A stretch of 64,000 nt of DNA from Amycolatopsis alba DSM 44262. Its GTDB lineage: Bacteria > Actinomycetota > Actinomycetes > Mycobacteriales > Pseudonocardiaceae. The stretch is taken from contig NZ_KB913032.1 of the NCBI RefSeq assembly GCF_000384215.1, positions 6,843,605 to 6,907,604 on the forward strand, written 5' to 3'. Positions 3 to 24,778 of the stretch are shown here, piece after piece. Position numbers and translations under genes: made by a program. Below the pieces are notes generated by a model, which was given only the letters and a program-made list of their open reading frames with translations, did not search any database and was not told the origin of the DNA. How positions within the stretch are numbered: the stretch's first letter is position 1; every line of letters starts with the position of its first letter.

Positions 3-104
3 CGACAGCTGATCCGCGCCTGCCGGGCGAGCCTCGCCGCGGCGCATGACGATGGCCTCGCATACCCGGGCCTTTCGGCCCCAGAGCCGCGCACCACTCC
101 GTAA
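3..104 (+). other. possible 3' end of an upstream gene
   Basis: Frame 3 is open from the window edge to TAA at 102-104 and reads as an Arg/Ala-rich tail ending in LSAPEPRTTP. It could be the last 33 codons of a gene whose body lies outside the window. No family can be recognised, and it overlaps the promoter-like palindrome at 68-81, so it may equally be chance. Confidence 0.25.
68..81. promoter_or_regulatory. DosR-like palindrome upstream of the DoxX-like gene
   Basis: GGGCCTTTCGGCCC fits the GGGNC-N4-GNCCC pattern repeated across this island. It lies 66 bp upstream of the ATG at 148. The match to the M. tuberculosis DosR core GGGACTWWAGTCCC is partial, with the inner A of the left half changed to C. 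Function is inferred. Confidence 0.5.
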
Positions 105-147
105 CAGACTGGATTCGACCATCAAGGCAGAATTCGAGGAGAATTCC

Positions 148-732
148 ATGGCCACCACCGAAAGCGGCCACCGCCACACAGTTCCCGCCGGTGACCTGAA
201 CATCCACACAGGACAGAGCACGGGCGCCAAGAGTCTCGCGGTGCTCCGCATCGCGACCGGGTTGTTGTTCCTGTGGGCTTTCGCCGACAAGACCTTCGGC
301 TTCGGCTACGCGACGTCTTCCGGCAACGCGTGGATCAACGGCGGTTCGCCGACGAAAGGCTTCCTGAGCCGGGTCGACGTCGGCCCGTTCGCCGAGACGA
401 TGCGTTCCTGGGGCGGCACCTGGTGGGCGGACTGGCTGTTCATGGCCGGTCTGCTCGGCATCGGTCTCGCCGTGACCTTGGGGATCGCCCTGCGGCTTTC
501 CGCCGTCACCGGAACCGTGATGATGTTGCTGATGTGGGTGGCCGAGTGGCCGCCCTCCCGGACCACCGCCGCGGGCGAACCGACGATGTCGACCAACCCT
601 GTGATCGACTACCACCTCGTCTACGCCCTCGTCCTCATCGCGCTGGCCGCGACGGCTGCCGGGGTGACCTGGGGGCTCGGTAATCTCTGGTCCCGCATGC
701 GGTTCGTCGACCGCAACCACTGGCTCCGCTGA
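148..732 (+). CDS. DoxX-like integral membrane protein
   Basis: A 194-residue protein with about four predicted membrane segments: one following SLAVLRIATGLLFLWAF near residues 30-50, two in the middle (WLFMAGLLGIGLAVTLGIAL, then VTGTVMMLLMW) and one near the C-terminus. This matches the DoxX/DoxD-like family, whose members sit in redox complexes or serve as uncharacterised membrane subunits. The start at 148 is chosen because GAGGAG lies just upstream; an in-frame ATG at 46 has no ribosome site. The gene is alone, converges on the acetyltransferase gene, and has a DosR-like palindrome upstream. The electron partner is unknown. Confidence 0.8.
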   Translation: MATTESGHRHTVPAGDLNIHTGQSTGAKSLAVLRIATGLLFLWAFADKTFGFGYATSSGNAWINGGSPTKGFLSRVDVGPFAETMRSWGGTWWADWLFMAGLLGIGLAVTLGIALRLSAVTGTVMMLLMWVAEWPPSRTTAAGEPTMSTNPVIDYHLVYALVLIALAATAAGVTWGLGNLWSRMRFVDRNHWLR

Positions 733-753
733 ACCACGGCCGGCAAGTCCGTG

Positions 754-794
754 AAGGCCTCCTTGAGGGACTCTGGGTCCCTCAAGGAGGCCTT
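754..794. terminator. bidirectional hairpin terminator between convergent genes
   Basis: A perfect 18-bp inverted repeat (arms 754-771 and 777-794, loop TCTGG) begins AAGGCCTCCTTGAGGGAC. It sits between the convergent DoxX-like gene and the acetyltransferase gene, so it is best read as a shared terminator. The inner part contains GGGAC and GTCCC and superficially resembles a DosR box, but its position downstream of both genes argues against that. Confidence 0.7.
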
Positions 795-804
795 GACGGA
801 CCGT

Positions 805-3207
805 TCAGCGCAGCGCCCGAAGATACGGATCGCTATGCGGCCGGCGCCGGACGAGCACACGGGCCGCACCCACCGCAGCGCCTTCGGGGGAGGCCAGCAC
901 CGGATCGAGGTCGACGTCCACGACCTCGGGCGACGACTCCACCATCCGGCTCACCCGCAGCAGAAGGTTCCGCACCGCCGCCTTGTCGACAGAGCCGTCA
1001 CCGTCACCGAAGAGCAGGTGAGCCGACCGCAGGCCGTCCATCAGGCCGTCGACGCCGGCGGTCGTGAGCGGGCAGAGGGCGGTGGCGCGGTCGTCGAGCA
1101 GTGCCTCGTCCAGGCCGCCGAGACCGAGCACGATCACCGGACCGAAGGTCTCGTCGATCTGCGCGCGCACGATCAGTTCCGTGTCACCGAACCTGCGTCC
1201 CGTGCTCCGGATTCCGAAGCAGCCGACGAACTCCTCGCTGTCCTTTCGGGACAACCAGCCACCGTCGGGATGTGCCGCGAGGTACTCGTCGACGAGTCGG
1301 GCGGCTGTCACCAGGTCGGTGTCGTCCAAGTCGGGGATCACGCCCTCGGCCTTCTTCAGCCACAGGGAACGGACGGCCAGTTTCGCCATGATCACGGCTG
1401 CCTCTTCGACATCGCCATAGCAAGGGACGCCCGCGTGCGCGGTCACGGATTCCAGCTGACCGAGCCGTACCGCCAGAACAGGTTTTCCCTGTTCCGGCGG
1501 TTTGAGCGCGGCGAGTGGATCTCCGACGCCGGTCGGCACGCCGGCCGCGATCACCGCGTCGACGGCGTCGTCCGCGAGCACGGCCGACACGCAAGCGGCG
1601 AACGTCTCCGCGGTGACGGCGGCACTGGTGTCGAGTGGATTTCCCACGGTCGCGTGTCCGGGCAGCAGGCGGCGCAGTCCGGCGACGGTGTCCGCGCTCA
1701 ACTCCGGGGCTCGCAGACCGTGACGGGTACAGGCTTCGGCGCCGAGCACCGCGGCGCCGCCCGCGTTGCTCACCACGACCACCCGATCGCCCGCCGGGAG
1801 GGGCTGCCACGACAAGGCGGCGAGGAGCCCGACCACCTCGGTCACGGAATCCACGACGAGGGCACCTGCCTGCCCGAACAATGCTCCCTTCGTGGCGGCC
1901 GGGGTCGCTCGCGCCGATGTGTGCGCGGCCGCGGCTCGCTGAGCGGCCGCCGTGCCGGCACCGCGAATGGCCACCACCGGCTTCTCCCGCGCGAGTGCGC
2001 GGGCCAGTCTGCTGAACTTCTTCGGGTTGCCGAAGGATTCGAGGTACAACACGGCGATGTCGGTGTTCTCGTCCCGGCGCCACCAGCGCAGGAGGTCGTT
2101 CCCGCTGACGTCGTACTTGTCCCCGGTGGAGACCAGAGTGGACACACCGAGTCCCAACGCGGACAACGAATCCAGCAGAGCGATGCCGAATCCGCCGGAC
2201 TGGGTGACGACACCGATCCTGCCCGGCGGCGCGACTCCGTGCGCGAACGTGGTATCGAATCGCACGGAAGACGCCGTGTTGGCCACGCCGAAGCAGTTCG
2301 GTCCGACCAGTCGTATGCCGTGTCCGCGCACGCTTTCACGCACTCGCTCGCCGAGCGGCGTACCGGTCAGCCCCGCGGTGACGAGGACGATCGCCCGGAC
2401 GCCGTGACGGCCGCACTCTTCGACCACGCCGGGTACCGCTTCCGCGGGGACACAGATGACCACGAGGTCCACCGGCCCCGGCAGCGAGGAGATCTGCGGA
2501 ACAGCGGGGACTCCGAGGATCTCCGTGGCGCTCGGATTCACCACGTGCAGTTCGCCCGAGTAGCCGGAATCGACCAGGTTGCGCAGGACCGCGCGCCCCA
2601 CCGAGCCCTCGCGGCGTCCCGCTCCCACCACGGCGACGGACGCGGGTTCCAGGACCGCGCGCAGGCTCGCGACGTCCGCGATCCGCTCCCGTTCCTCGAT
2701 CCGTTCGAGATACGTCTCCGGTTCACCGAGTTGGATCTCCACATCACGTTCCGGACCCGTATGGCTGATGACGCAGGGCAGGCCCAGATCGGAGAACACG
2801 CGGACCATGCGGCTGTTCTCCGCGAGCACCAGGGCGAGGAACCGGCGGATCCCCTTCCCGAGGGCCAGGGAGACGAGGTGCTCCAGCAACAGGGTTCCGA
2901 CGCCGTGCGCCTGGGCGCTCCCGTCGACGGTGAGTGCCACCTCCGCCGTGTCCCCCTCACTCTGAACACGATAGTGGGCGACACCGAGCAGGTCGTCACC
3001 GCGAAAGGCCCCCAGGCCGGGACCTTCGAGCACCAAACGCGTCAGATGCTCCAACCCGGCCGGATGGGCCGTGAAGAACCGCAGATAGCGATCACGCTCG
3101 TCGAGTCGCCGATGCAGGTCCACCACGACGTCGAAGTCGTCCTCACGCAACAGGCGGACGGTGACCATGTCCCCGTCCGCCAGCAACGCCGTGATCTCCG
3201 CCGTCAT
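805..3207 (-). CDS. GNAT protein acetyltransferase with degenerate acyl-CoA synthetase (NDP-forming) domain, Pat-like
   Basis: An 800-residue fusion. Residues about 1-180 form a GNAT domain (acetyl-CoA loop around QAHGVGTLLLEHL). Residues about 190-460 are a CoA-binding Rossmann domain (VAVVGAGRREGSVGRAVL) plus a succinyl-CoA-ligase-like domain. The C-terminus resembles an ATP-grasp subunit. Pat enzymes of this layout acetylate lysines of acyl-CoA synthetases; an N-terminal GNAT order is known from Streptomyces lividans PatA. The ATP-grasp part looks shortened: the nucleotide-binding stretch (ALKxxG...HKTDxGG in the family) is missing between GCFGIRSTGRR and the SFGPV-like TFGPVIVLGLGG, so synthetase activity is unlikely. 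The ATG at 3207 overlaps the stop of the preceding CBS gene by 4 bp, indicating coupling. It is the last gene of a 7-8 gene operon. Confidence 0.88.
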   Translation of the reverse strand: MTAEITALLADGDMVTVRLLREDDFDVVVDLHRRLDERDRYLRFFTAHPAGLEHLTRLVLEGPGLGAFRGDDLLGVAHYRVQSEGDTAEVALTVDGSAQAHGVGTLLLEHLVSLALGKGIRRFLALVLAENSRMVRVFSDLGLPCVISHTGPERDVEIQLGEPETYLERIEERERIADVASLRAVLEPASVAVVGAGRREGSVGRAVLRNLVDSGYSGELHVVNPSATEILGVPAVPQISSLPGPVDLVVICVPAEAVPGVVEECGRHGVRAIVLVTAGLTGTPLGERVRESVRGHGIRLVGPNCFGVANTASSVRFDTTFAHGVAPPGRIGVVTQSGGFGIALLDSLSALGLGVSTLVSTGDKYDVSGNDLLRWWRRDENTDIAVLYLESFGNPKKFSRLARALAREKPVVAIRGAGTAAAQRAAAAHTSARATPAATKGALFGQAGALVVDSVTEVVGLLAALSWQPLPAGDRVVVVSNAGGAAVLGAEACTRHGLRAPELSADTVAGLRRLLPGHATVGNPLDTSAAVTAETFAACVSAVLADDAVDAVIAAGVPTGVGDPLAALKPPEQGKPVLAVRLGQLESVTAHAGVPCYGDVEEAAVIMAKLAVRSLWLKKAEGVIPDLDDTDLVTAARLVDEYLAAHPDGGWLSRKDSEEFVGCFGIRSTGRRFGDTELIVRAQIDETFGPVIVLGLGGLDEALLDDRATALCPLTTAGVDGLMDGLRSAHLLFGDGDGSVDKAAVRNLLLRVSRMVESSPEVVDVDLDPVLASPEGAAVGAARVLVRRRPHSDPYLRALR

Positions 3208-3779
3208 GTCTTGGCCGGCTTCCGGCCGGTCAACACCACCGCGACGACTCCCGGAACGGTCCGGGCCAACGCGTCCAGCACGCGCCGCTCCGCCTCGTCC
3301 CGGTACTCGCCGGAGATCTGTACGTAGCCTCCGTCCACCGAGACCGACCACCTCGGACGGTGACCGGCGTAGTCGCTGAGCAGATTGTGGACGTGGGCGG
3401 CGACGGTGTCGTCCGGCCGCACCAGCGGGCGGAGCAGGTCCCGCCTGCTGACGACCCCGACCAGCACCCCTTCCTCGACGACCGGCAGGCAGCGGAGCCG
3501 GTCGCCGAGCATCCGGCGGCCGATCTCCGCGACGTCGGTCTTCGGCGAGACGACCTCCACCGGGGTGGTCATCAGCTCGCCGACCATGATCCCGTTGCCA
3601 CCGGACCAGGCTCGCCGCAGCGCGTCGAACTCGGTGAAGGTCCCTACCACCTTGCCCTCGGTGTCGACGACCGGAAGCCCGGCGAACCCCCTCTCGATCA
3701 GCAAGGCGACCGCCTCACGGACAGGTGTGTCGGGTGTCGTCGCCACCGCCGGACTCGTCATGATCTCTGAAGCACGCAT
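3204..3779 (-). CDS. CBS-pair protein with C-terminal BON domain
   Basis: A 191-residue cytosolic protein. Two CBS motifs occupy residues about 1-125 (MRASEIMTSPAVATTPDTPV and GELMTTPVEVVSPKTDVAEI), followed by a BON-type domain ending in VPGVVAVVLTGRKPAKT. CBS pairs bind adenine nucleotides and usually act as energy sensors; BON domains bind lipid or other ligands. The start at 3779 is supported by GAGGAG just upstream; 22 more codons could be read without a ribosome site. Its stop overlaps the acetyltransferase start (ATGA). A second protein of the same architecture is encoded at 13874-14479. The regulated target is not known. Confidence 0.88.
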   Translation of the reverse strand: MRASEIMTSPAVATTPDTPVREAVALLIERGFAGLPVVDTEGKVVGTFTEFDALRRAWSGGNGIMVGELMTTPVEVVSPKTDVAEIGRRMLGDRLRCLPVVEEGVLVGVVSRRDLLRPLVRPDDTVAAHVHNLLSDYAGHRPRWSVSVDGGYVQISGEYRDEAERRVLDALARTVPGVVAVVLTGRKPAKT

Positions 3780-3805: not shown

Positions 3806-4192
3806 TCAAACGGCCGGGGTGCGACTGCGCAAGAAGCCTCGGCACGCCTCGATGAGCTCCTCACCGTCAGCGGTGACGACACGACTCTCCAAGCCCGGCG
3901 GGATCATCGGGCCGCAGGTCCCCGGCGCCGGGGTCAGGATGACCGGCACCCGCGCCCGGAGCGCGCAGATCACTCCGAACTCCCGCGTCGTCAGTTCGGG
4001 CTCGACCGAGCGGACGTCGACCGCGAGATCCGGTGCGTCGGCTTCGTCGAACGGACATCTCCCGCCCGGGGCCAACGCTCGGCAGAGCCCGGCCCGGCTG
4101 TGACAGGTGGATACGCGGCAGCCCAGTTCCCGCAAGGCTTTCCCGACGTCGTCGGCGTCTCCGAATACGGCCTCGGTCAGCAGAACTCGCAT
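3806..4192 (-). CDS. small conserved-looking protein, possibly receiver-like
   Basis: A 128-residue protein with no confident family. The N-terminus (MRVLLTEAVFGDADDVGKAL) and alternating hydrophobic strands suggest a receiver-like or flavodoxin-like alpha/beta fold, but the aspartate pocket of true response regulators is not evident. It contains three cysteines in its first half. AAGGAG precedes the ATG. It sits between the Rv1733c-like gene (13 bp upstream) and the CBS-BON gene (26 bp downstream) in the same operon, so a stress role is likely by context only. Confidence 0.65.
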   Translation of the reverse strand: MRVLLTEAVFGDADDVGKALRELGCRVSTCHSRAGLCRALAPGGRCPFDEADAPDLAVDVRSVEPELTTREFGVICALRARVPVILTPAPGTCGPMIPPGLESRVVTADGEELIEACRGFLRSRTPAV

Positions 4193-4205: not shown

Positions 4206-4805
4206 TCAGGCGGCGGTCCAGTCCTTGGCGACCCGTTCCCACTCTCGGGTCAAGGCGGTCTCACGTGAGCGGCCGAGCAGCACGCGGCAGCCCAGGTACA
4301 GTCCGGCCAGGAGAGTCACGAACGCGAGCCAGGTCCCGACGCCGACGCCGATGCCGGTGCTCGTCGCGTCCGTGGGGGTCACGGGCGGATCGACCACCTT
4401 TCCCGCCGCGTCGAGCCAGATCCGGACCTCGTTTCCCGTCATGGCACCGGACTCGACGGCGACCACGCCCTCCCGGATCGGCCCGCCCGGCACGGTCCAG
4501 CGGGCGTGCACGTAGGCCGTCTCTTCGATCGGTACTCCGTCGAGGCGGATCCGCACGGGTGGCGCGTCGGCCAGCAACATCGCTGTCGTCTCACGCCGGT
4601 CCACGGTCTGCTCGGCCGCCTTGAGCATCTTGCGGGCGTAGGTGTCGGACCCGGCCGCGGCGGCGAACGGGATCGCCAGTAAGGCGGCCAGGACGGCTCC
4701 GACCGCGAGCGCGGCTTCACACCGGTCGGACCAGCGGGCGAGCGGATTACGCCCGAGGTGGAGCCGCCGCCACAGCATGGTGACGATTCCTGGCTGCTCT
4801 CGCAT
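4206..4805 (-). CDS. Rv1733c-family transmembrane protein
   Basis: A 199-residue membrane protein with one hydrophobic segment near residues 30-52 (ALAVGAVLAALLAIPFAAAA) and another near 150-175, with an extracytoplasmic region between. The signature HLGRNPLARWSDRCEA before the first segment and WxxVAKDW near the end are typical of the Rv1733c family, a DosR-regulon membrane protein of M. tuberculosis of unknown biochemical function. GGGAG lies at a suitable distance from the ATG. It is followed 26 bp after the USP gene in the operon. A paralogue is encoded at 7202-7798. Confidence 0.85.
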   Translation of the reverse strand: MREQPGIVTMLWRRLHLGRNPLARWSDRCEAALAVGAVLAALLAIPFAAAAGSDTYARKMLKAAEQTVDRRETTAMLLADAPPVRIRLDGVPIEETAYVHARWTVPGGPIREGVVAVESGAMTGNEVRIWLDAAGKVVDPPVTPTDATSTGIGVGVGTWLAFVTLLAGLYLGCRVLLGRSRETALTREWERVAKDWTAA

Positions 4806-4831: not shown

Positions 4832-5338
4832 TCAGAGAATCGGGCCCGGCTCGTAGGAAACGGAGTTCAGAAGGCGGCCCAGCCTGCTGCCCGGTGTCCG
4901 GGCGGGCGGCGGGATCACGACGATGGGACAGGTCGCGTTGTGCAGGCACGCGTTGCACACGGACCCCACGAGCAGTTCTCGTAGCTTCCCTGTCCCGTGG
5001 CTGCCGAGAACGAGTAAAGAGGCGCCCTTCGACTGCTCGACCAGGACGTCGCCCGGGTCTCCGACGGGCACCTCGTAGCGGACCTGAAGTGCTTCGTGAC
5101 CTTCGAGCAGTTTCGACGTCGCTGCTTCGAGAGCCTTCAGATGGACTGCTTTCGCCTGCCCGACGGAGCGGTTCGCCGATACGTCGTCCAGCATGGCGTC
5201 GTGGAACCACGCGTTGACCACCTGCAGCACGGCACCTTGCCGAGTCGCCTGCTCGGCCGCCCAGCGAACGGCCGCGGCGGAACTCGCCGAACCGTCCATT
5301 CCGACGACGATCCGGTTCTCCGTGGTGTCGTCTGTCAT
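4832..5338 (-). CDS. universal stress protein, single domain
   Basis: A 168-residue cytosolic USP. The N-terminal strand IVVGMDGSASSAAAVRWA and the C-terminal ATP-binding motif G-x2-G-x9-G-S (GSHGTGKLRELLVGS) are intact, so this member is expected to bind ATP. USPs of the DosR regulon are induced in hypoxia and adjust growth. There is a 20-residue Arg/Pro tail after the core. Its ATG overlaps the stop of the upstream Acg-like gene (ATGA at 5335-5338), so the two are translated together. Confidence 0.92.
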   Translation of the reverse strand: MTDDTTENRIVVGMDGSASSAAAVRWAAEQATRQGAVLQVVNAWFHDAMLDDVSANRSVGQAKAVHLKALEAATSKLLEGHEALQVRYEVPVGDPGDVLVEQSKGASLLVLGSHGTGKLRELLVGSVCNACLHNATCPIVVIPPPARTPGSRLGRLLNSVSYEPGPIL

Positions 5339-6147
5339 GACGTGTGTCCCTTCTCTGCCGGTGTTCCCTGGTGTTTCCGGACTATGACGACCAGTTGAGG
5401 AAGCCCCGCGGCCGCGCCGAGGCCGACGAGTGCGCCTCGGACCTCCGGTGCGTCGAAGGGCTCAGTGAGCGTGCAACTGCGCAATCCGTGCTCTGCGGCG
5501 GCGAGCCGTAAACGTTGAGTCACCGCACCGGCACGGACGAGGTGGGGGCGCGCTTCCGTTTCGCCGCCGACCACGAAGGCCGACCAGGTTTCGGCCCGGT
5601 CTTCGATCTCGGGCGCCGCCCTACGGCCGATCTGCCCGCCGACCTTGGGAAGTGCTCGCACGCCGCGCGGAGTCAGTGAGCCGACGTGCACTCCCCCTGA
5701 GGTGCATTCCTTCGCGACCCTCCGGCTCCACTCCGCCAAGGACGGGGGAAGGGGCTTCGACACTCGCCCGGACATCGCGCCGAACCGGGCGAAATCACCG
5801 GCCTCCGGACGTGTCCGGACCGACGCCTTGATGCGCGCGACCCGGTCGAGTGCGAGGAGGTCAGCGGACAGGTCCACGAGGGGCGACCAGCCCAGGACTC
5901 GGACCGTGAGCTCGAGATGGGCGAGCGCGGCTCCGCAGGCGATCAACCGGGCGCGACCGCCACGGTCGCGAAGCCAGTGAGTATCGCGCGGCTTCTCGAA
6001 GAGATCCACCGTGTCCCCGCGAAGGGAAAGGATCCATTCGTCGCCGAGCCATCGCCGTGCCGCGAGCCGAGCCGCCCCGACGAGGATTCGCTTCTCCTCG
6101 GCCGACCAGACATGAGCCGGGACCGCGGTCCGCAGGGAGCCGCTCAT
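5335..6147 (-). CDS. divergent Acg-type nitroreductase-family protein lacking the FMN-loop motif
   Basis: A 270-residue member of the Acg/Rv2032 branch of the nitroreductase superfamily, recognisable from LRGDTVDLFEKP, IACGAALAHLELTVRVLGWSP and the C-terminal CTLTEPFDAPEVRGAL. Normal members carry R-A-P-S-x-H-N-x-Q-P-W near the N-terminus to bind flavin; here the same position reads RLAARRWLGDEW, so the binding loop is lost. It is also shorter than the neighbouring paralogue (320 aa), with which it overlaps by 4 bp. It may bind flavin without turnover or pair with the intact paralogue; both ideas are inference. Confidence 0.85.
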   Translation of the reverse strand: MSGSLRTAVPAHVWSAEEKRILVGAARLAARRWLGDEWILSLRGDTVDLFEKPRDTHWLRDRGGRARLIACGAALAHLELTVRVLGWSPLVDLSADLLALDRVARIKASVRTRPEAGDFARFGAMSGRVSKPLPPSLAEWSRRVAKECTSGGVHVGSLTPRGVRALPKVGGQIGRRAAPEIEDRAETWSAFVVGGETEARPHLVRAGAVTQRLRLAAAEHGLRSCTLTEPFDAPEVRGALVGLGAAAGLPQLVVIVRKHQGTPAEKGHTS

Positions 6148-7106
6148 CGTGCTCCCCGCCGTTCCCGGACGACCGCGTCGATCGGCCGGCGTGGTGTCGG
6201 GACGCCGGGATAGCCGTATCCCAGCCGGAAGACGGTCTGCGGATGAACGGCGCCGCCGAGCAGAGCTCGGAGTTCCGCCTGGGTGGAAGGGATTTCCATC
6301 GGCTGCGAATAGAACGACGCGCTCAGTCCGGCGTCGCAGGCCGTGAGCAATACCCGCTGCATCGCCCGGCCCGCACGGACCTGCGACAGAGAGCCGTCGC
6401 TCGGGGTCGTCAGCACCGCGACCAGCGGATCCTGTTCGAAGACCCGGATCTCCTCGCTGCCGGCGAAATGCCGGACGGGGAGCAGGCCGCCCGCGGACCG
6501 GGGCCCGCCCGCGGAGTCCGGTACGCCGTCGTCTCCGCCGTGGCCCTTGGCCCAGGCGCGAAGCTCCGCTCGGAAGGCCTTGTCCTGGGTCTGTGTGTGG
6601 TCGGCCCGTCGGATGAGCGCCGCCACCGGCTCCAGCAGGCCGTGTTCGTCGAGAAGCACGAGACCGGCGCCTTCCTCGTGCGCCGCTTGGACGACCGCTG
6701 CCCGCGCCGCGGGCGGCACCGCCTGATCGGTGAACGGGCGCCGGTTGCTGAAGCGCCGCGGCACAGCGGTCGCGAGCCTCCGCTCAGCCGGACTCGGCCG
6801 ATGCCGGGGCCCCAGTTCCACCCTCGCGAGCAAAGAGGGCCGGTCACGCTCAGGTGCCAGTTCGACGTCCGCGACCCGCCCGGCCACGGCGATCGCGACT
6901 TCCAGGTTGAACAAGGCGGCACCACAGGCCAGCCGGGCCTCTCGCCCGTCGGGATCGCAGACGCCCAGTATCCGGTCCTCGTCGAGGATCAGATCGATCA
7001 CGTCCGGCGCCAGCTCGAAGATCCACGGCTGCGCGTTGTGCGGCGACGGCGCCCGGACGGCCGCTTCCAGCGCGGTCGTGACGACCGGCGACTGCGTGAC
7101 GACCAT
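6144..7106 (-). CDS. Acg-type FMN-dependent nitroreductase-family protein
   Basis: A 320-residue Acg-family protein. The flavin-loop motif RAPSPHNAQPWIFEL is present near residue 15, followed by LACGAALFNLEVAIAVAGR and a C-terminal half ending FRLGYGYPGVPTPRRPIDAV. In M. tuberculosis such proteins (Rv2032, Rv3127, Rv3131) belong to the DosR regulon; their substrates are unsettled. The start at 7106 follows AGAGGAG; in-frame upstream ATGs would run into the promoter-like stretch. It is the first gene after a 95-bp gap and overlaps the next, degenerate paralogue by 4 bp. Confidence 0.9.
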   Translation of the reverse strand: MVVTQSPVVTTALEAAVRAPSPHNAQPWIFELAPDVIDLILDEDRILGVCDPDGREARLACGAALFNLEVAIAVAGRVADVELAPERDRPSLLARVELGPRHRPSPAERRLATAVPRRFSNRRPFTDQAVPPAARAAVVQAAHEEGAGLVLLDEHGLLEPVAALIRRADHTQTQDKAFRAELRAWAKGHGGDDGVPDSAGGPRSAGGLLPVRHFAGSEEIRVFEQDPLVAVLTTPSDGSLSQVRAGRAMQRVLLTACDAGLSASFYSQPMEIPSTQAELRALLGGAVHPQTVFRLGYGYPGVPTPRRPIDAVVRERRGAR

Positions 7107-7185: not shown

Positions 7186-7199
7186 GGGACCTTCGGCAC
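7186..7199. promoter_or_regulatory. weak DosR-like half-palindrome before the nitroreductase operon
   Basis: GGGACCTTCGGCAC has an intact left half (GGGAC) and a poor right half. It lies 79 bp upstream of the ATG at 7106, overlapping the end region of the upstream Rv1733c-like gene. It may give the nitroreductase operon its own start, or the operon may simply be read from the upstream gene. Confidence 0.3.
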
Positions 7200-7201
7200 C
7201 G

Positions 7202-7798
7202 CTACCACGACGTCCATTTCGGGGCCGTCGCCCGCCATTCCTCCTGCCAGCGGGAAAGCCGAGCTCGATCGAGCCACAGCCGGACCAGCCCGTAGAGCAG
7301 CGAAGAGACCACGATCGCGGCCAGCCAGAGTGCGATGGCCGCACCGATCCCCATCAAGCGCGCGTCGGGCACGGTCAAGGGCGAGGCGACCGGATGCCCT
7401 ACACCGTCGAGCCAGACAGGTACCTTCGCGCCCGCTCGAGCACCACGGGACGCCGGCACCTCGCCGACTCGGACCTCTCCCCCATGAGTGGACCAGGTGG
7501 CTTCGGTGGGCTGTGTGTCCTTCGTCAAGCCCGCACGTCCCCCCATGGCGAGCGGCGCGCCGTCCTCCAGGAGTGTCGCCTCGCCGCGATACCGCTCACC
7601 CTGTTCGGCGGCGGCCCGCTCCGACTTCGCCACGAAGACCGCCGAGCCTGCTGCCGCGGCGAACGGCAAGGCGGCGAGCACGATGAGAACGGCGAGCAGG
7701 AGGGTGATCGCTTCGGCGCGATCTTCCCCGCGCGCCAGCGGATTGTGTCCGATGTGAACGGTGTGCCAGGCTCGCGCCCAACGTGACGACGCATCCAT
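7202..7798 (-). CDS. Rv1733c-family transmembrane protein (second copy)
   Basis: A 198-residue paralogue of the protein at 4206-4805. It keeps the family signature HIGHNPLARGEDRAEA, then a hydrophobic segment near residues 30-55 (LLLAVLIVLAALPFAAAAGS), an outer loop, and a second segment near 155-180 (MGIGAAIALWLAAIVVSSLL). The ATG at 7798 follows GGAGGT. It is divergent from the CBS gene at 7943; the 144-bp gap carries a DosR-like palindrome. Two copies within 3 kb of each other suggest local duplication. Confidence 0.85.
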   Translation of the reverse strand: MDASSRWARAWHTVHIGHNPLARGEDRAEAITLLLAVLIVLAALPFAAAAGSAVFVAKSERAAAEQGERYRGEATLLEDGAPLAMGGRAGLTKDTQPTEATWSTHGGEVRVGEVPASRGARAGAKVPVWLDGVGHPVASPLTVPDARLMGIGAAIALWLAAIVVSSLLYGLVRLWLDRARLSRWQEEWRATAPKWTSW

Positions 7799-7869: not shown

Positions 7870-7883
7870 AGGGTCGACCGTCC
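7870..7883. promoter_or_regulatory. DosR-like palindrome between divergent genes
   Basis: GGGTCGACCGTCCC fits GGGNC-N4-GNCCC. It lies 71 bp from the leftward start (7798) and 59 bp from the rightward start (7943), so one site could serve both. Regulator identity is inferred from the motif and the gene content. Confidence 0.55.
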
Positions 7884-7942
7884 CGGCTTGGCGGGACCTC
7901 CAGCGCTGTCGCCGGCACAACCGCGCGGCTGACACTGAGTCC

Positions 7943-8374
7943 ATGCGAGTACGTGATGTCATGACCACCCCGGTCGTCGCGGTGACGCCCTCGGCCACGA
8001 TCGGTGAGGCGATCGCCGTGTCGACCGGCAAGGGATTCACCTCGCTACCGGTCGTCGACGACCTCGGCAGGCTCATCGGGCTGCTCTCCGAGGAAGACAT
8101 CATCCGCGCGGGCTGTCTTCCCGATCCGCGGCTGGACGGTGGACCCGACGCCGGCGTTCACCTGGGTGCCCCGGTCACCGTCCGGGACATCATGCGGGCG
8201 CCCGGCGTGGGCGCTCATCCGGACACCGAACTCACCGATCTCGCGGACAGGATGCTCGAACACCGGCTCAGGTCGGTCCCGGTGCTCGAACTCGGCCAGG
8301 TGATCGGTGTCGTCACCTGGCAGGACCTCCTCCGCGCAAAGATCGACCTCCCGTCGCAAAGGAACGAACCATGA
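7943..8374 (+). CDS. CBS-pair domain protein
   Basis: A 143-residue protein that is little more than two CBS motifs: MRVRDVMTTPVVAVTPSATI with FTSLPVVDDLGRLIGLLSEED, then VRDIMRAPGVGAHPDTELT with RSVPVLELGQVIGVVTWQD. It resembles the stand-alone CBS proteins of the DosR regulon (Rv2626c type) and probably senses adenine nucleotides. Its stop overlaps the start of the next USP gene (ATGA at 8371-8374). The ATG at 7943 is preferred to upstream frames, which would cross the promoter palindrome. Confidence 0.9.
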   Translation: MRVRDVMTTPVVAVTPSATIGEAIAVSTGKGFTSLPVVDDLGRLIGLLSEEDIIRAGCLPDPRLDGGPDAGVHLGAPVTVRDIMRAPGVGAHPDTELTDLADRMLEHRLRSVPVLELGQVIGVVTWQDLLRAKIDLPSQRNEP

Positions 8375-15959: not shown

Positions 15960-15973
15960 GGGCCCGAAGTCCC
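15960..15973. promoter_or_regulatory. DosR-like palindrome, flavodoxin operon (proximal)
   Basis: GGGCCCGAAGTCCC (reverse strand GGGACTTCGGGCCC) fits the island motif and ends 57 bp upstream of the ATG at 15903. It abuts a perfect 20-bp palindrome (15972-15991, CCGTCGGCCCGGGCCGACGG) that may be a second regulatory site. Confidence 0.55.
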
Positions 15974-16000
15974 GTCGGCCCGGGCCGACGGTCCCGCGCC

Positions 16001-16014
16001 AGGACCACAGTCCC
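16001..16014. promoter_or_regulatory. DosR-like palindrome, flavodoxin operon (distal)
   Basis: AGGACCACAGTCCC (reverse strand GGGACTGTGGTCCT) has an intact GGGACT half and one change in the other. Together with the site at 15960 it gives the tandem arrangement seen at strongly induced DosR promoters in mycobacteria. Confidence 0.5.
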
Positions 16015-16179
16015 TGGTTCCCCGGCGATGACCTCCACCTGGGGAGCCGGACACTCTCGACTCTCCATCGCGCCGTGAATAGGGAAATTCGGCCCGGAAA
16101 TCGAAAACGTCGGCCACTGGGTGCGCGTCAGTCACCGGATGAGGCTGAGAGTCCGGCACAGACCGGGAGGGAGCGTGTC

Positions 16180-18876: not shown

Positions 18877-20373
18877 ATGAACGATCCGTCACCCGGCTGG
18901 GCTGGTATGCACGAAACCCACATCGGCGTGGTCTTCCTGGTCGGAGAACTCGCTTACAAGCTCAAGAAACCGGTCGATCTCGGCTTCCTCGACTTTTCCG
19001 AACGCAAGACCCGCGAGCAGGTATGCCACCGCGAGGTGGTGCTGAACCGGCGGCTCGCGCCGGACGTCTACCTGGGCGTCGCCGACGTCACCGGGCCGGA
19101 CGGTGACATCTGCGACCACCTCGTCGTCATGCGCCGAATGCCCGAGGACCGCAGACTGTCCACTCTGGTCGACACCGGTGCACCCCTGCGCGCGACGATC
19201 CGGCAACTGGCCAGGCAGCTCGCGTCCTTCCACTCCCGAGCCGAACGCGGGCCCGCGATCGACGCCGACGAGACCCGCGACGCGGTGCGCGGGCGCTGGC
19301 GGGACAGCTTCGAGCAGGTCCGGCCGTTCCACGACACCGTGCTCGACGCGGGCACCGCGATCGAAATCGAGGCGCTGGCCGAAGAATTCCTCGCCGGACG
19401 CGAAACGCTGTTCGACCGCCGGATCACCGAAGGGCGCGTCGTCGACGGCCACGGCGACCTGCTCGCCGACGACATCTTCTGCCTCGACGACGCCCCTCGC
19501 GTGCTCGACTGCCTCGAGTTCGACGACCATCTCCGCCACGTCGACGTACTCGACGACATCGCCTTCCTCGCCATGGACCTCGAACGGCTCGGCGTCCCGG
19601 AACTGGCCGCGCACCTCGTCGCCGACTACCGCGAGTTCACCGGCGACCCCGCGCCCCCGGCACTGCTGCACCACTACCTCGCCTACCGTGCCTTCGTCCG
19701 GGTCAAGGTCGCCTGCCTGCGCTCGGCTCAGGGCGACACCGAGTCCGCCGAACTGGCCCGCGACTACGCCGGCATCGCATTGCGGCACCTGCGGCTCGGC
19801 CAGGTCAGGCTGATCCTCGTCGGCGGCGCGCCCGGTACCGGCAAGTCCACGGTCGCCGGCGGGCTGGCCGACTCGCTCGGCGCGACGCTCCTGCAGTCGG
19901 ACCGGCTCCGCAAAGAACTCTCCGGGCTGGCCCCTGCCCGGCGCCCCGCCGAGAACTACCGGCGGGGCCTTTACGACAGAACCCGCACCGACTCGACCTA
20001 CGCGGAACTCGCGCACCGTGCGGGTGCGCTGCTGGCGCTCGGCGAAACCGTCGTGGTGGACGCGTCGTGGTCCACCGTCCGGCACCGGCTGCTCGCCACC
20101 GCGGCCGCCGAGCCCACCAGCTGCCCGGTACTGGCCATCCGCTGCGAAGTACCGGAAAACTTGGCGACGGAAAGAATCGCGACTCGGACCGACACCCTTT
20201 CCGACGCCACCCCCGAAATCGCGCACCTGATGGCCGCCGACGCCGAGCCGTGGCCCGAGGCCCGCGCACTGAGCACCACCGGCTCCCCACAAGAGTCGAT
20301 CGCGCGGGCGATGGCGCTCCTTTCCCTCGCGCGCGGGCGAGGTGATCAAGCTGAGCACGCCTTCACCGCATGA
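18877..20373 (+). CDS. Rv2004c-like protein: APH-type kinase fold fused to P-loop ATPase
   Basis: A 498-residue two-domain protein. The N-terminal half resembles aminoglycoside-phosphotransferase-type kinases (VDGHGDLLADDIFCLDD, then LDCLEFDDHLRHVDVLDDIA). The C-terminal half has a Walker A loop, GGAPGTGKSTVAG, near residues 316-328 and resembles AAA_33 zeta-toxin/kinase-like domains. The same fusion occurs in Rv2004c, a member of the DosR regulon, of unknown substrate. The leader 18730-18876 holds GGGACC and GGTCC half-sites (for example 18828-18841) but no clean palindrome. The downstream GAPDH gene follows closely. Confidence 0.88.
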   Translation: MNDPSPGWAGMHETHIGVVFLVGELAYKLKKPVDLGFLDFSERKTREQVCHREVVLNRRLAPDVYLGVADVTGPDGDICDHLVVMRRMPEDRRLSTLVDTGAPLRATIRQLARQLASFHSRAERGPAIDADETRDAVRGRWRDSFEQVRPFHDTVLDAGTAIEIEALAEEFLAGRETLFDRRITEGRVVDGHGDLLADDIFCLDDAPRVLDCLEFDDHLRHVDVLDDIAFLAMDLERLGVPELAAHLVADYREFTGDPAPPALLHHYLAYRAFVRVKVACLRSAQGDTESAELARDYAGIALRHLRLGQVRLILVGGAPGTGKSTVAGGLADSLGATLLQSDRLRKELSGLAPARRPAENYRRGLYDRTRTDSTYAELAHRAGALLALGETVVVDASWSTVRHRLLATAAAEPTSCPVLAIRCEVPENLATERIATRTDTLSDATPEIAHLMAADAEPWPEARALSTTGSPQESIARAMALLSLARGRGDQAEHAFTA

Positions 20374-20396: not shown

Positions 20397-20410
20397 AGGA
20401 CCAAGGTCCC
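20397..20410. promoter_or_regulatory. DosR-like palindrome upstream of GAPDH
   Basis: AGGACCAAGGTCCC (reverse strand GGGACCTTGGTCCT) fits the island motif with one end change. It lies about 60-75 bp before the proposed GAPDH start, at the same distance as at other genes here, which supports a start near 20471 rather than at 20342. Confidence 0.5.
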
Positions 20411-20470: not shown

Positions 20471-21490
<1,020 letters not shown>

Positions 21491-21551: not shown

Positions 21552-22568
21552 TCAGCAGGGATCCGGTGTCGCTCTCAGCACGGCGGCACCGTTCACCCGG
21601 TCCGCCGCCAGATCCGAGAGCGCCTGATCAGCCCTGGACAAGGGATAGGGCACCGTGCTCACCGCCAGCCGATGAGCCCCTGCGAAGTCCAGGAACTCCC
21701 GGGCGTCAGCGCGGGTGTTCGCGGTGACGCTGCGGACCTGACGCTCCTGGAACAGGTGTCGCTGATAGTTCAAGGACGGGATGTCCGACAAGTGGATCCC
21801 CGCGATTGCCAAGGTACCCCCGCGATCAAGCGCCTCGAGCGCGGGAGGCACCAGCTCCCCTACCGGGGCGAACAGGATCGCCGAATCCAAAGGCTCCGGC
21901 GGCGGATCGGCGGCGTCCCCGGCCGAGGCCACGCCGAGCTCCAACGCCAGCTTCCGGGCTTCCGCACTGCGAGTCATCACGTGCACCGTGGCACCACGGG
22001 CGATCGCTACCTGCGTGGTCAGATGCGCGCTGCCGCCGAAGCCGTAGATTCCGAGGCGTCCGCGTTCGGGCAGGTCCGCCCGCGCCAGCGCGTGATAGCC
22101 GATCAATCCGGCGCACAGCAGCGGTGCCAGTTCGTCATCGGTGTATCCGCTGGGCAACGGCAGGGCGTAAGCGGCCGGCACGACAGCGAACTCGGCGTAC
22201 CCGCCGTCTGCGTCCCAACCGGTGTACCGCGACTCCGGGCACAGGTTCTCCCCGCCACGTAGGCAATACCGACACGTTCCGCATGTCTCGCGGAGCCAAG
22301 CGACCCCGACCCGGTCGCCGTCGGCGAATCCCGTGACGCCCTCGCCGACGATCTCGTGCCCCGGCGTGACCGCCGGCCGGTGGACGGGCAGATCACCCTC
22401 GGCGACGTGCAGATCGGTGCGACACACCCCGCACACCAGCACCCTGACGAGCACTTCGCCGGCGGAAGGCCGCGGGACCGCCACCAGCGACCACTCGAGG
22501 GGCCCGGAGGCCATCGGCCCTGGCCGGGTGACCCGCCAGGCATGCATCTCCGGTGGCAGATTCTTCAC
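21552..22568 (-). CDS. zinc-dependent alcohol dehydrogenase (AdhA-like)
   Basis: A 338-residue medium-chain dehydrogenase. Catalytic zinc ligands are in CGVCRTDLH and GHEIVGEG; the structural zinc site is [15 protein letters not shown]; the nucleotide loop is YGFGGSAHL. It probably interconverts alcohols and aldehydes with NAD(H) in the cytosol. The GTG at 22568 is chosen because AGGAGG lies 6 bp upstream; the Met at 22547 is an alternative. The gene has its own promoter with a DosR-like site and would re-oxidise NADH in the fermentative scheme suggested by the island. Confidence 0.92.
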
Positions 22569-22631
22569 GATCGACCTCCTCCGGAACAGCATCGCGAACT
22601 CGCGCCGGCGACGCTACGCCGCGTGGTCCCA

Positions 22632-22645
22632 GGGACCTTCGGCCC
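22632..22645. promoter_or_regulatory. DosR-like palindrome upstream of adh
   Basis: GGGACCTTCGGCCC fits GGGNC-N4-GNCCC and lies 63 bp upstream of the GTG at 22568. It is followed by GTCCC, giving a second overlapping half-site, and preceded by GGTCCC-A-GGGACC, a tight palindrome. Confidence 0.55.
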
Positions 22646-22728
22646 GTCCCGCCGTTTCAGCGGGCGTGAGAACGCGTCCGCAGGTTCCAACTCGGGGCGC
22701 TGCCATCCTGACCTGTCCGTTCGATGGG

Positions 22729-23235
22729 TCACGAACACACCCGCGAGATGACGAAGTGACCGCGCGATGCCGTCGCGGCCCAGGTATCACGCCGGTACTG
22801 CAGCAGCCGAGCCTTCACGTGGTCGCGATCGGCTCGCGGCGCCGGTGGAACGGGAGCTGTGGACGCACCGCCGGCAGCTTGAATCGCGGTCACGAACCGG
22901 CCGACGGCGTCCGGCGAGGGCACGAGTTCACCTCCGAAGTAGGCGAGCACCAGCAGGTCCTCTCCGGAATGCGTCTCCATGGAGAAGGCCCAGCCGTGGC
23001 GCTCGTCCCACAGCAGGGCCATGTCCCGCTCCGGATGGCGGGGCAACCGCTGGTCCAGGGCGATGTAGGCGGACGCGGGGTGATCGAGGTCCATGGCACA
23101 GGACTCTTGTCCCACTCCCACCGCGGCGCTCACCGCGGCCAGGTAGCCCGCCAGCCCGCACCTCAGGTCGTGATCGAGTTCGATTCCGGTCAGCAGGGAA
23201 ATCACCCTCCGTGGAGTCTGAACGTCACCGGCCAC
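22729..23235 (-). CDS. DUF6292-family protein
   Basis: About 168 residues. The core (ELDHDLRCGLAGYLAAVSAA, ERDMALLWDERHGWAFSMET, VLAYFGGELVPSPDAVGRF) matches small actinobacterial proteins annotated as DUF6292, of unknown function. The start is uncertain: GTG at 23235 or 23205 lie downstream of the palindrome at 23308-23321, while ATG codons further up would include that palindrome in the coding region. Its 5' end overlaps the 3' end of the CHAD gene, so it is read either with that gene or from a promoter inside it. Confidence 0.72.
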   Translation of the reverse strand: MAGDVQTPRRVISLLTGIELDHDLRCGLAGYLAAVSAAVGVGQESCAMDLDHPASAYIALDQRLPRHPERDMALLWDERHGWAFSMETHSGEDLLVLAYFGGELVPSPDAVGRFVTAIQAAGGASTAPVPPAPRADRDHVKARLLQYRRDTWAATASRGHFVISRVCS

Positions 23236-23815
23236 TTCGGACCGGTTCCCGCCCGACCGTACGAGTGCGCCGCGTCCGCCGGATGGCGTCAAAGTGCCCT
23301 TGGGCGAGGGACTTTCGTCCCTCGCAGCGCCCGGCGCACCAGGTCCATAACGGACGAAGGGCATCGCGGAGTTCACGCCAGGCCTTCGGCAGGGCGGCCA
23401 CGCATCGATCGGCGTTGGCCGTCTCCTGCGCCTGGACCGCCGTCAAGGTACCGTCAGCGACCTCCAAGGCGCTCAAGAGCTCGCGGGCGACGACAGCGTC
23501 TTGGAATTCCCCGAGGAGGTCCTGGAAGGCACGCAGTGCGGGCTTGGCCTCGACCGGCAGCGCTTCGGCACCTGCCTCCAACGCGTACCGCAGCCGCTTG
23601 GCCGCTTTCCGCACACCGTGAACGGCGCGGTCACGGTCCGGACCGGCCGGTAGCGCAGCGATCCCGGACACGCGAGCGTCGACTCTCCCGGCCACCGCAC
23701 GAGCCAGGTGAGGAAGTACTCGCCTGGCAGGTCGCCGGGCCGCTGTGGGCCGCTGCCGCAGAGACACCGTATCGAAGTACACGGTGCCGGGTGCGGTCAC
23801 GACGGTCGCGCTCAT
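23225..23815 (-). CDS. CHAD-domain protein
   Basis: A 196-residue helical protein of the CHAD family. Conserved basic residues appear in VHGVRKAAKRLRYALEAG, followed by acidic and basic helices (FQDLLGEFQDAVVARELL). CHAD domains bind inorganic polyphosphate and often lie beside polyphosphate enzymes. Its ATG at 23815 (with GAAGGAG upstream) overlaps the stop of the PPK2 gene by 4 bp, so the two are coupled and likely act together on polyphosphate. A perfect-looking DosR box lies inside the last third of the gene. Confidence 0.88.
   Translation of the reverse strand: MSATVVTAPGTVYFDTVSLRQRPTAARRPARRVLPHLARAVAGRVDARVSGIAALPAGPDRDRAVHGVRKAAKRLRYALEAGAEALPVEAKPALRAFQDLLGEFQDAVVARELLSALEVADGTLTAVQAQETANADRCVAALPKAWRELRDALRPLWTWCAGRCEGRKSLAQGHFDAIRRTRRTRTVGREPVRSGR
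23308..23321. promoter_or_regulatory. best DosR-like box, inside the CHAD gene
   Basis: GGGACTTTCGTCCC is the closest match in the window to the DosR core (GGGACTWWAGTCCC; mycobacterial variants include GGGACTTTNGTCCC). It lies within the CHAD coding region, 73 bp before the proposed DUF6292 start at 23235, so an internal promoter for DUF6292 is likely. Confidence 0.6.
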
Positions 23816-24702
23816 GATTTTGGCTCCTTCAAGGTCGCCGCGTGGTCCGGGACGTAGTTCTGCAGCAGCCGGTCGGGGCGGCAATAGCCGTTCGATTCCG
23901 GACGTGCGGGGAGCGAAACCGCCTCATGGACGACGTCGTGGTAGGGCACGCTCGAGAGAAGGTGCGCGATCATGTTGAGCCGCCCGCGCCGCTTCTCCTC
24001 GCTTTCGACCACGTGCCAAGGAGAGCCAGCGGTATCGGTATGCACGAACATGTCGTCCTTCGCCCGCGAGTAGTCCTCCCATTGCGTCACGGATCGCAGG
24101 TCCATCGCGGACAGTTTCCAACGACGCATCGGATCGTCGATCCGGTTTCGGAACCGCCGCTCCTGCTCGTCCCGGCTGACCGAGAACCAGTACTTCCGCA
24201 GGAGGATGCCGTCGTCGACCAGCAGCCGCTCGAAGATGGGGCACTGCTGAAGGAAGCGCCTGTGTTCTTCGGGAGTGCAGAACCCCATCACCCGCTCGAC
24301 GCCGGCACGGTTGTACCAGCTGCGGTCGAACAGCACGATCTCACCGGCCGCGGGCAGGTATTCGATGTAGCGCTGGAAATACCACTGCGTCCGTTCACGA
24401 TCGGTAGGCTTCGGCAGAGCCGCGATCCGCACGACGCGCGGGTTCAGATGTTCGGTGACCCGCTTGATCGTGCTCCCCTTCCCCGCCGCGTCCCTTCCCT
24501 CGAACACCACCACCAGCCGGGCGCCCTCGTGCCGCACCCACTCCTGAAGCTTGACCAGCTCGGCCTGCAACCGCAGCAGTTCCCGTTCGTACGTCACGCG
24601 CGGGATCCGCGCCTTGTCCTTGCCGGCCATACCCTCGACGGTACGAATCCAGGAGGCATCGGGATTCGGCCGTACGTCGACGGCGGAGAGGACTTTGGTC
24701 AT
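23812..24702 (-). CDS. ppk2: polyphosphate kinase 2
   Basis: A 296-residue PPK2 that moves phosphate between polyphosphate and nucleotides (NDP to NTP or GDP to GTP). Seen: Walker A GRDAAGKGSTIKRV, the lid region RFRNRIDDPMRRWKLS and Walker B FDRSWYNRAGVERVMGFC, then YWFSVSRDEQERRF. It has a single domain of normal class I length. The ATG at 24702 gives this length and leaves a DosR-like site about 62 bp upstream; a later ATG at 24630 is possible. Coupled to CHAD downstream and divergent from an Acg-type nitroreductase gene. Confidence 0.93.
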   Translation of the reverse strand: MTKVLSAVDVRPNPDASWIRTVEGMAGKDKARIPRVTYERELLRLQAELVKLQEWVRHEGARLVVVFEGRDAAGKGSTIKRVTEHLNPRVVRIAALPKPTDRERTQWYFQRYIEYLPAAGEIVLFDRSWYNRAGVERVMGFCTPEEHRRFLQQCPIFERLLVDDGILLRKYWFSVSRDEQERRFRNRIDDPMRRWKLSAMDLRSVTQWEDYSRAKDDMFVHTDTAGSPWHVVESEEKRRGRLNMIAHLLSSVPYHDVVHEAVSLPARPESNGYCRPDRLLQNYVPDHAATLKEPKS

Positions 24703-24764
24703 AGGCGACGAGAGACATCCGACTCTCTCTCCATCAGCCACTATGGACGGTTCCCACGACGGAA

Positions 24765-24778
24765 GGGTCGAAGGACCC
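24765..24778. promoter_or_regulatory. DosR-like palindrome between ppk2 and nitroreductase genes
   Basis: GGGTCGAAGGACCC lies 62 bp from the leftward ppk2 start and 81 bp from the rightward start at 24860. It nearly repeats the hsp20 site (GGGTCGAAAGACCC) and could serve both directions. Confidence 0.55.

Follow-up and report, generated by a model that had tools for sequence, protein, structure and literature searches.

The DosR (DevR) dormancy system of mycobacteria is marked by a characteristic gene set encoding Hsp20, universal stress proteins (USPs), the Acg/Rv3131 and Rv1733c families and, near Acg, WS/DGAT. Some of its promoters carry two boxes that are bound cooperatively, and tgs1 and Rv3131 have divergent promoters (PMC3029386); the phosphorylation site in the receiver of the regulator is Asp54 (PMC4082495, PMC3029386). 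OsdKR of Streptomyces coelicolor (around SCO0167-SCO0219), as described in PMC5069765, uses the same box, with consensus AGGGCCGATCGGCCCT, and boxes predicted for Rhodococcus equi (NNNGGGHCNWWNGNCCCBNN; PMC2947987) resemble those reported below; the island described here is thus not the first outside mycobacteria.

We analysed a 64-kb stretch of Amycolatopsis DNA (the window) and its surroundings, where regulator, apparent heme-type sensor, boxes and many signature genes of a probable DosR-type dormancy island lie together. Amycolatopsis is a genus known for antibiotic producers, and the existence of the island there means that a DosR-type system can be studied outside pathogens.

Palindromic sites and genes in the window

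The palindrome GGGNCN4GNCCC has nine exact matches in the window, all inside 68-24778. The putative DosR-type boxes and related matches are as follows, with their retention in same-genus relatives and, for some, their score in a matrix built from published OsdR sites:

68..81, box before the DoxX-like gene (start 148); exact; kept in 4/4 usable relatives
3909..3922, pattern match inside a 128-aa ORF; exact; kept in 0/3 relatives
7186..7199, one-mismatch box before an Acg gene (start 7106); kept in 4/5 relatives, background 0.28
7871..7884, box in the middle between the divergent starts 7798 (-) and 7961 (+); exact; kept in 4/4 relatives
10569..10582, box before hsp20, 93 bp from the start; exact; kept in 0/3 relatives
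15960..16014, tandem boxes of the flavodoxin promoter: 15960 and 15982 (22 bp apart; pair kept in 7/7 relatives, at -63/-85 and with no more than one altered letter) and one-mismatch 16001
16082..16095, one-mismatch box before the HAF-repeat gene (start 16180); matrix score 9.4
20397..20410, one-mismatch box upstream of the GAPDH coding sequence; position kept in 3/3 relatives with one further letter changed
22632..22645, box before adh; exact; matrix score 13.8; kept in 1/3 relatives
23308..23321, box before DUF6292; exact; matrix score 15.0, the highest among those listed for the window; kept in 2/3 relatives
24765..24778, box between divergent PPK2 (24702) and Acg (24860); exact

An earlier sequence-only reading had named nine firm sites, seven of which are exact (68, 7871, which it placed at 7870, 10569, 15960, 22632, 23308 and 24765) while two, 16001 and 20397, carry one mismatch (AGGAC...); its "weak" box at 7186 is likewise a one-mismatch match, and it overlooked the exact sites 15982 and 3909. 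The spacing of 55-100 bp before starts that it gave agrees with the 57-93 bp from box edge to start codon at its seven exact sites, measured on gene calls from our own script with both starts counted at divergent pairs. The centre of the 7871 box lies 80 and 84 bp from its two starts.

The genes of the island within the window are:

148..732, +, DoxX-like membrane protein (Pfam DoxX E=1.4e-4, 22.9 bits, just below the cutoff of 23.6)
805..3207, -, NDP-forming acyl-CoA ligase-GNAT acetyltransferase fusion (Pfam Succ_CoA_lig, ATP-grasp_5, CoA_binding, Acetyltransf_1)
3204..3779, -, CBS-BON protein (Pfam CBS above cutoff, BON slightly below)
4206..4805, -, Rv1733c-family protein (NCBIfam NF050032, 160 bits, cutoff 80)
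4832..5338, -, universal stress protein (Pfam Usp)
5335..6147, -, partial Acg homologue, under the family cutoff (NCBIfam NF047509, 78 bits, cutoff 199)
6144..7106, -, Acg (Rv3131) family FMN oxidoreductase (NF047509, 316 bits)
7202..7798, -, second Rv1733c-family protein (NF050032, 153 bits)
7961..8374, +, CBS-domain protein (Pfam CBS)
8907..9995, -, acetate kinase (Pfam Acetate_kinase 5e-90; N-terminus MRVLTLNPGSSSLK)
10069..10476, -, Hsp20/alpha-crystallin (Pfam HSP20 5e-20)
10594..12981, -, phosphoketolase, Xfp (Pfam XFP_N, XFP, XFP_C)
12978..13877, -, tandem universal stress protein (Pfam Usp, two stretches)
13874..14461, -, CBS-domain protein (Pfam CBS)
14493..15395, -, tandem universal stress protein (Pfam Usp, two stretches)
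15379..15903, -, flavodoxin, first gene of a presumed operon to Xfp (Pfam Flavodoxin_5)
18907..20373, +, AAA_33 protein (Pfam AAA_33 1e-21)
20474..21490, +, glyceraldehyde-3-phosphate dehydrogenase, GAPDH, start uncertain (Pfam Gp_dh_N/C); start taken from comparison with relatives, the gene caller having chosen GTG 20342
21552..22568, -, zinc-type alcohol dehydrogenase (Pfam ADH_N, ADH_zinc_N)
22729..23235, -, DUF6292 protein (Pfam DUF6292 3e-33)
23812..24702, -, polyphosphate kinase 2, PPK2 (Pfam PPK2 3e-104)
24860..25864, +, Acg (Rv3131) family FMN oxidoreductase (NF047509, 303 bits, cutoff 199)

The island as a whole encodes the signature set: Hsp20, USPs, a WS/DGAT, five proteins of the Acg/Rv3131 family and two of the Rv1733c family. 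The Hsp20, USP, Acg and Rv1733c genes named by the sequence-only reading were all found, as were its additional members phosphoketolase, PPK2 and DUF6292, but its CHAD gene is a mere fragment; the 23308 box sits inside a 148-aa ORF that matches just the C-terminal part of CHAD. The AAA_33 protein, presumably the Rv2004c homologue, as that reading labelled it, has matches in four mycobacterial dosR loci at 43-44%. To our knowledge, Xfp, acetate kinase (AckA), flavodoxin, PPK2 and DUF6292 are not members of the classical mycobacterial DosR regulon.

The regulator, its kinase and the signal

A DosR/DevR orthologue is encoded at G000:C1:6835576-6836250, 7 kb left of the window (best PDB match 3c3w DevR, 1e-86). 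It keeps the receiver Asp and the EKTVKN helix of DevR, D55 and K180/K183/N184 corresponding to DevR D54 and K179/K182/N183, the last three of which we take to be DNA-contact residues. A DosR-type box precedes dosR itself, and the gene is adjoined by that of a kinase whose GAF-A domain matches DosT at 2e-63 and whose H145 aligns with the heme-ligand histidine of DevS, His149, features that point to a DosS/DosT-type heme-GAF sensor. The island therefore carries its own regulator; it begins left of the window and spans ~45 kb (about 6823600-6869500) rather than the 24 kb first proposed. Orthologue, kinase and OsdR-matrix hits in the same island strengthen the proposed link to DosR, and we regard the island as a relative of the known dormancy system because its DNA switch is of the mycobacterial kind and genes for a fitting regulator and sensor adjoin it.

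Mycobacteria and Streptomyces have regulator and kinase in a codirectional operon, a non-essential mark of DosR/DevR/OsdR regulons; in the present island dosR and dosS are convergent. We compared 80 named dosR-like loci: a kinase within 1.3 kb is convergent in 37 and codirectional in 19, with neither arrangement in 24. The 19 codirectional loci all come from mycobacteria or Nocardia; L014, a record under the name Nocardia, belongs to the convergent group.

We put at roughly 0.85 the probability that the palindromes are DosR/DevR/OsdR boxes, read by the island DosR after phosphorylation by the kinase and activating the dormancy island. The adjacent heme-GAF kinase would phosphorylate DosR, which would then bind the boxes and activate about a dozen transcription units of the ~45-kb island; boxes about midway between divergent genes probably drive both, and the 22-bp distance between the flavodoxin-promoter boxes would suit cooperative binding. 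Sites, genes, regulator genes, enrichment and a partial conservation are what we observe; box binding, activation, operons, a low-oxygen or NO signal and the metabolic role are what we infer. It is possible, if somewhat unlikely, that DosR controls the island but that development, redox state or starvation, and not hypoxia, is the natural trigger: such a role has been proposed in part for S. coelicolor OsdR, which affects development and stress genes (PMC5069765), and PPK2 and USPs would fit starvation, whereas the DosT/DevS heme-ligand position is retained in the kinase sequence and a flavohemoprotein-like gene has an exact box in front of it.

Conservation, enrichment and placement of the boxes

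In same-genus relatives (identity of 55% or more, coverage of 60% or more and an alignment that begins no later than residue 9, other rows being dropped), the box is kept in 53/74 site-relative pairs against 18.4 expected, a count in which some boxes enter twice, once per divergent gene, and the relatives are not independent. The set is thus conserved apart from 3909, 10569 and, by position, 24765, with 22632 weak as well; 16082 was left out of the count, the HAF-repeat gene having no usable relative. By position the 24765 box is kept in 0/2 relatives of either gene; a box lies at a shifted distance in relative G031 and, before Acg, in G016, and G018 has no box before PPK2.

The boxes could also be real operators read mainly by another NarL-type regulator, or by several together; candidates are the DosR-like proteins encoded at 7422714 (63%) and 2028086 (58%). 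The genome encodes four DosR-like regulators at E<=1e-60, the island's own included, and the PNPOx-kinase-regulator genes at 2028086 have one strict box 78 bp ahead of them. This reading is nonetheless distinctly improbable, as boxes cluster around DosR orthologues of at least 78% identity (13 boxes in 47.6 kb around 13 orthologues) and not around paralogues of 63-67% (two in 57.7 kb around 16), and the locus of the 7422714 paralogue, L149, has one box in 20 kb. Against the main reading, no enrichment of spacing 4 is seen in six islands of the same genus that belong to the 64-65% DosR lineage: 120 kb hold 9 such matches, and 2-11 at other spacings. A search for another palindrome near the 63-67% paralogues yielded word counts dominated by coding sequence shared between homologous loci.

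The pattern is commoner here than elsewhere in the genome: 278 matches in 9.81 Mb predict 0.70 in 24.7 kb, against nine observed (Poisson 6e-8, an optimistic value because the region was picked for its sites). Sixty evenly spaced 20-kb genome tiles hold 0, 1 or 2 sites in 31, 26 and 3 cases and never more, against six at 1-20000 and seven at 5001-25000 of the window; in window 1-25 kb, spacing 4 gives nine matches and the ten other spacings from 0 to 10 give 0-3 each. Whole-window shuffles average 6.1 matches and 16/100 reach nine, so that they alone are unimpressive and not decisive against chance. Loci linked to Xfp seemed enriched in spacing 5 as well (29 matches, as many as the 29 for spacing 4), but this was rejected, since many are spacing-4 boxes flanked by one more G or C.

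A matrix built from published OsdR sites gives at scores of at least 13 three sites in the window and three in L002, the 20 kb directly left of it, against seven in a 1.2-Mb control. The published DosR consensus occurs at five positions in the window, two in L002, one in L003 and none in L001, against four strand-counted matches in the control. The strict pattern has 30 sites in the genome, seven of them in 35.7 kb of island sequence (0.11 expected). Most of the 23 beyond it look like chance, because 11 of the 22 fetched with flanks (52677 omitted) lie inside genes and, of the 11 outside called genes, only seven have a start no more than 150 bp away, in one case just 8 bp. Strict matches exceed a reversed-pattern control in only 4/60 genus genomes, this one included; the box signal is therefore local.

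All 12 exact sites in window 1-25 kb and L002 lie outside called genes, and for 11 a called start is no more than 150 bp away, against 9/32 and 4/32 in the 1.2-Mb control; the coding fraction called by our script in controls (0.81) is probably low, which would, if anything, raise the control's share outside genes. The twelfth, 23308, is centred 79 bp before the DUF6292 ORF, which has a Pfam match and was called in one run but omitted from the placement-test run, as was the 128-aa ORF around 3909. A -10 element at a fixed distance finds no support: TA at offsets 17-24 accompanies 5/20 oriented boxes against 3.5 expected (P 0.27), and TANNNT is likewise sparse.

That the set consists of GC-rich hairpins, for instance terminators, or has arisen by chance is very improbable indeed. 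Some window shuffles do reach nine, and GGGCCTTTCGGCCC, for one, could fold into a hairpin as RNA. Terminators are nevertheless rejected, because several boxes lie between divergent starts, with no gene end called there, and chance is ruled out for the whole set by the controls on genome, tiles and spacing, in line with conservation in relatives. For 3909 it stays likely, this site being probably a chance match.

A phosphoketolase branch and comparison with known systems

The flavodoxin-USP-CBS-USP-Xfp genes overlap at 3/4 junctions, the fourth gap being 31 bp. This presumed operon and the Hsp20-AckA genes behind it would yield acetyl phosphate, ATP and acetate when respiration stops, and the fermentation genes hint at a way in which such aerobes may obtain ATP once oxygen runs out. 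In other actinomycete families, too, phosphoketolase is linked to DosR-like genes: the two lie within 25 kb in 6/51 other class members having both, against 0.74 expected. It is tempting, if quite unlikely, that acetyl phosphate is coupled to the dormancy switch of the island: DosR would drive phosphoketolase, acetate kinase would turn its product, acetyl phosphate, into ATP and acetate, and acetyl phosphate, by which OsdR is phosphorylated in vitro (PMC5069765), could act back on DosR, holding the dormant state without the sensor. If so, the recurring linkage would be a trace of this loop. We came across no description of a phosphoketolase-DosR link in the portion of the literature searched.

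With the mycobacterial regulon the island shares the box, DosR, a DosS/DosT-type kinase, Hsp20, Acg, Rv1733c, USPs and WS/DGAT near Acg; it differs in forming one island, in its convergent dosR-dosS and in the addition of Xfp, AckA, flavodoxin, PPK2 and DUF6292. Paired boxes and divergent promoters are likewise common to both (PMC3029386). OsdKR, as presented in PMC5069765, is also a two-component pair within a stress island with USPs, nitroreductase, alcohol dehydrogenase and many boxes 50-160 bp before starts, but osdR-osdK form one operon, whereas regulator and kinase converge here, and nitrate reductase genes belong to that system, whereas none is among the genes scanned here. Phosphoketolase does not occur in the main text of that paper, and the R. 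equi report discusses Xfp apart from DosR boxes in the part that bears on it (PMC2947987). The phosphoketolase/acetate-kinase branch and the convergent dosR-dosS pair are thus the less familiar features of an otherwise recognisable system.

Box frequency and placement

The genome is a single contig of 9.81 Mb in which the window sits at G000:C1:6843605-6907604, and a pattern scan of the whole window for GGGNCN4GNCCC, the DosR-type box, returned nine matches, every one of them within 68-24778. The sequence-only reading had proposed that such palindromes link most units of this segment; seven of its nine firm sites are exact, those at 16001 and 20397 carry one mismatch each, as does the site at 7186, and its list lacked the exact sites 15982 and 3909. 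At the genome frequency (278 sites, versus 709 for the reversed pattern) 24.7 kb should hold 0.70 sites rather than the nine seen; the shuffled window yields 6.1 matches on average, each of 60 evenly spaced 20-kb tiles contains at most two sites, and half-sites are not enriched at spacings other than 4. The strict form, GGGHCNWWNGDCCC, occurs 30 times genome-wide, and seven of these sites fall within 35.7 kb across the left flank and the island in the window, where 0.11 would be expected, the Poisson values being optimistic because the region was chosen for its sites. Among 22 strict sites outside the island that were fetched with their surroundings, 11 lie in genes and seven are intergenic and at most 150 bp from a start; strict matches elsewhere in the genome mostly look like chance.

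All 12 exact boxes in the first 25 kb of the window and the 20 kb directly to its left (L002) are intergenic, compared with 9 of 32 in a 1.2-Mb control (Fisher 1.4e-5), as scored on gene calls made for this analysis and with the status of 3909 and 23308 hinging on which small ORFs count as genes. Box 23308 falls in the end of a CHAD-like ORF (23225-23671) that matches the C-terminal part of the domain only (profile 167-227 of 228) and is perhaps a CHAD remnant. The gene caller starts GAPDH at GTG 20342, a choice that would make box 20397 intragenic; at 20474-20476 three relatives (G016, G018, G019) have an ATG start, and the aligned stretch here reads ...GATAAAGGTACGG, without ATG. Boxes lie between divergent genes at 7871, 24765, 15960-16001, L002:9044, L002:11867 and L002:2117/2139, and in two pairs, L002:2117/2139 and 15960/15982, the boxes are spaced by 22 bp, a distance that is also the most frequent between boxes in the relatives' tiles (7 counts, followed by 35 bp with 6). 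For DevR, cooperatively bound box pairs have been described, as has a divergent promoter region (PMC3029386).

Regulator and kinase

Two genes to the left of the window supply a candidate regulatory pair:
L002:11972-12649, 7 kb left of the window: response regulator (dosR)
L002:12641-14362, convergent with dosR: GAF-GAF-HisKA_3-HATPase kinase (dosS), by domain matches

The dosR product retains the EKTVKN helix as well as the receiver Asp, and its best PDB match is DevR 3c3w (1e-86), followed by VraR (5e-38); the nearest named DosR loci are those of Amycolatopsis keratiniphila (89%) and A. azurea (86%). The first GAF domain of the kinase matches DosT (2e-63) and DevS (2e-55 to 2e-54), and its H145 aligns with DevS His149, the heme ligand (PMC4082495). 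An exact box lies upstream of dosR, its centre 98 bp away. The link to DosR, previously drawn from motif and gene set, thereby becomes a concrete hypothesis comprising a DosR orthologue, a DosT/DevS-like kinase and a box before dosR. By analogy with the mycobacterial and Streptomyces systems, a kinase heme losing oxygen or binding NO would lead to phosphorylation of DosR, which would bind single or paired boxes near promoters and so switch on the island units.

Across 80 named DosR-like loci the regulator and kinase are convergent in 37 and codirectional in 19, the latter exclusively mycobacteria or Nocardia. The strand of dosS carries, upstream of it (L002:14459-18217), genes for an Acg-family protein, a SulP permease and a lycopene-cyclase-like protein, which may form a single operon with dosS; a conserved one-mismatch box, L002:18286, goes with the lycopene-cyclase-like gene. 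A possible second, smaller DosR-type unit lies elsewhere in the genome, at L088:235-2930 (G000:C1:2028083-2030778). Its genes code for a PNPOx protein, for a kinase whose ATPase part is DosT/DevS-like and which matches the DosT GAF over a short stretch, and for a DosR-like regulator (58%); a strict box lies 78 bp upstream of the first of them. At G000:C1:7420252-7429506 (mostly L149) a 63% DosR-like regulator lies near two HisKA_3 kinases (open frames of 608 and 623 aa), in a 20-kb tile with one box only.

Conservation of the boxes

Box conservation was scored over 74 site-relative pairs from seven genomes of the genus that have related islands. Counting a box as kept when no more than one of its eight fixed letters differs, within 3 bp, 53 pairs keep it, with 18.4 predicted from other positions of those upstream regions. 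The box is kept before DoxX (4/4), flavodoxin (7/7, both boxes) and GAP (3/3) and at 7186 (4/5) and L002:18286 (4/4), in one of three relatives before adh, and in none of three each at 3909 and 10569 (hsp20). Before PPK2 and Acg4 it is kept by position in neither of two relatives; a box at a shifted distance precedes both genes in G031 and Acg4 in G016, and G018 has none before PPK2. The island flavodoxin itself is patchy across the genus: by listed identities 21 of 60 genomes, A. alba counted, have a match of at least 47%, nine give no match at E<=0.001, and the remainder have weaker matches only.

Thirteen DosR orthologues of at least 78% identity have 13 spacing-4 boxes nearby in 47.6 kb, versus two in 57.7 kb for 16 paralogues of 63-67%; six same-genus islands of the 64-65% DosR lineage contain nine boxes in 120 kb, without enrichment. 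In the 1.54 Mb covered by the 80 named loci there are 180 matches at spacing 4, 67-101 at each of the other spacings and 164 to the reversed pattern; 20 loci have a box within 350 bp upstream of the DosR-like gene.

Gene content and relation to known systems

The island encodes Hsp20, USPs, two Rv1733c-family proteins, Acg/Rv3131-family proteins (L002:2222, L002:10754, L002:14459, window 6144 and window 24860, all five exceeding the NCBIfam cutoff) and a WS/DGAT acyltransferase, whose gene is downstream of L002:2222. Outside it, two of the seven intergenic strict sites close to starts lie 88 bp before a further Acg-family gene (L098) and 100 bp before a flavohemoprotein-like gene (L003:4049), which scores 370 bits against the NO-inducible flavohemoprotein model, below its cutoff of 432.

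A presumed operon (15903-10594) holds flavodoxin, USP, CBS, USP and Xfp, with overlapping gene ends at three of four junctions, and is followed by the Hsp20 and acetate kinase genes; together they suggest a fermentation branch giving ATP and acetate. Of 51 other class members that have both Xfp and a DosR-like gene, 6 have the two no more than 25 kb from each other (0.74 expected, P 1e-4), the placements being taken by eye from match lists; five of these pairs were seen again, each on one fetched stretch, and in G169 the genes are split over adjoining stretches. Xfp falls inside the fetched flanks of four of the 80 named loci, those of A. keratiniphila, Herbidospora, Acrocarpospora and Actinomadura (L004, L032, L037 and L070). 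In two other stretches, L246 and L249, a box lies 141 bp and 91 bp, respectively, upstream of the Xfp match.

OsdR of S. coelicolor is described as controlling an island around its own gene and recognising the same element as the A. alba boxes (PMC5069765), and DosR boxes of nearly the pattern used here have been predicted in R. equi (PMC2947987), so that the A. alba island belongs to a known kind of system. Its less familiar features, judged from sequence, are its convergent regulator pair and its putative phosphoketolase branch.
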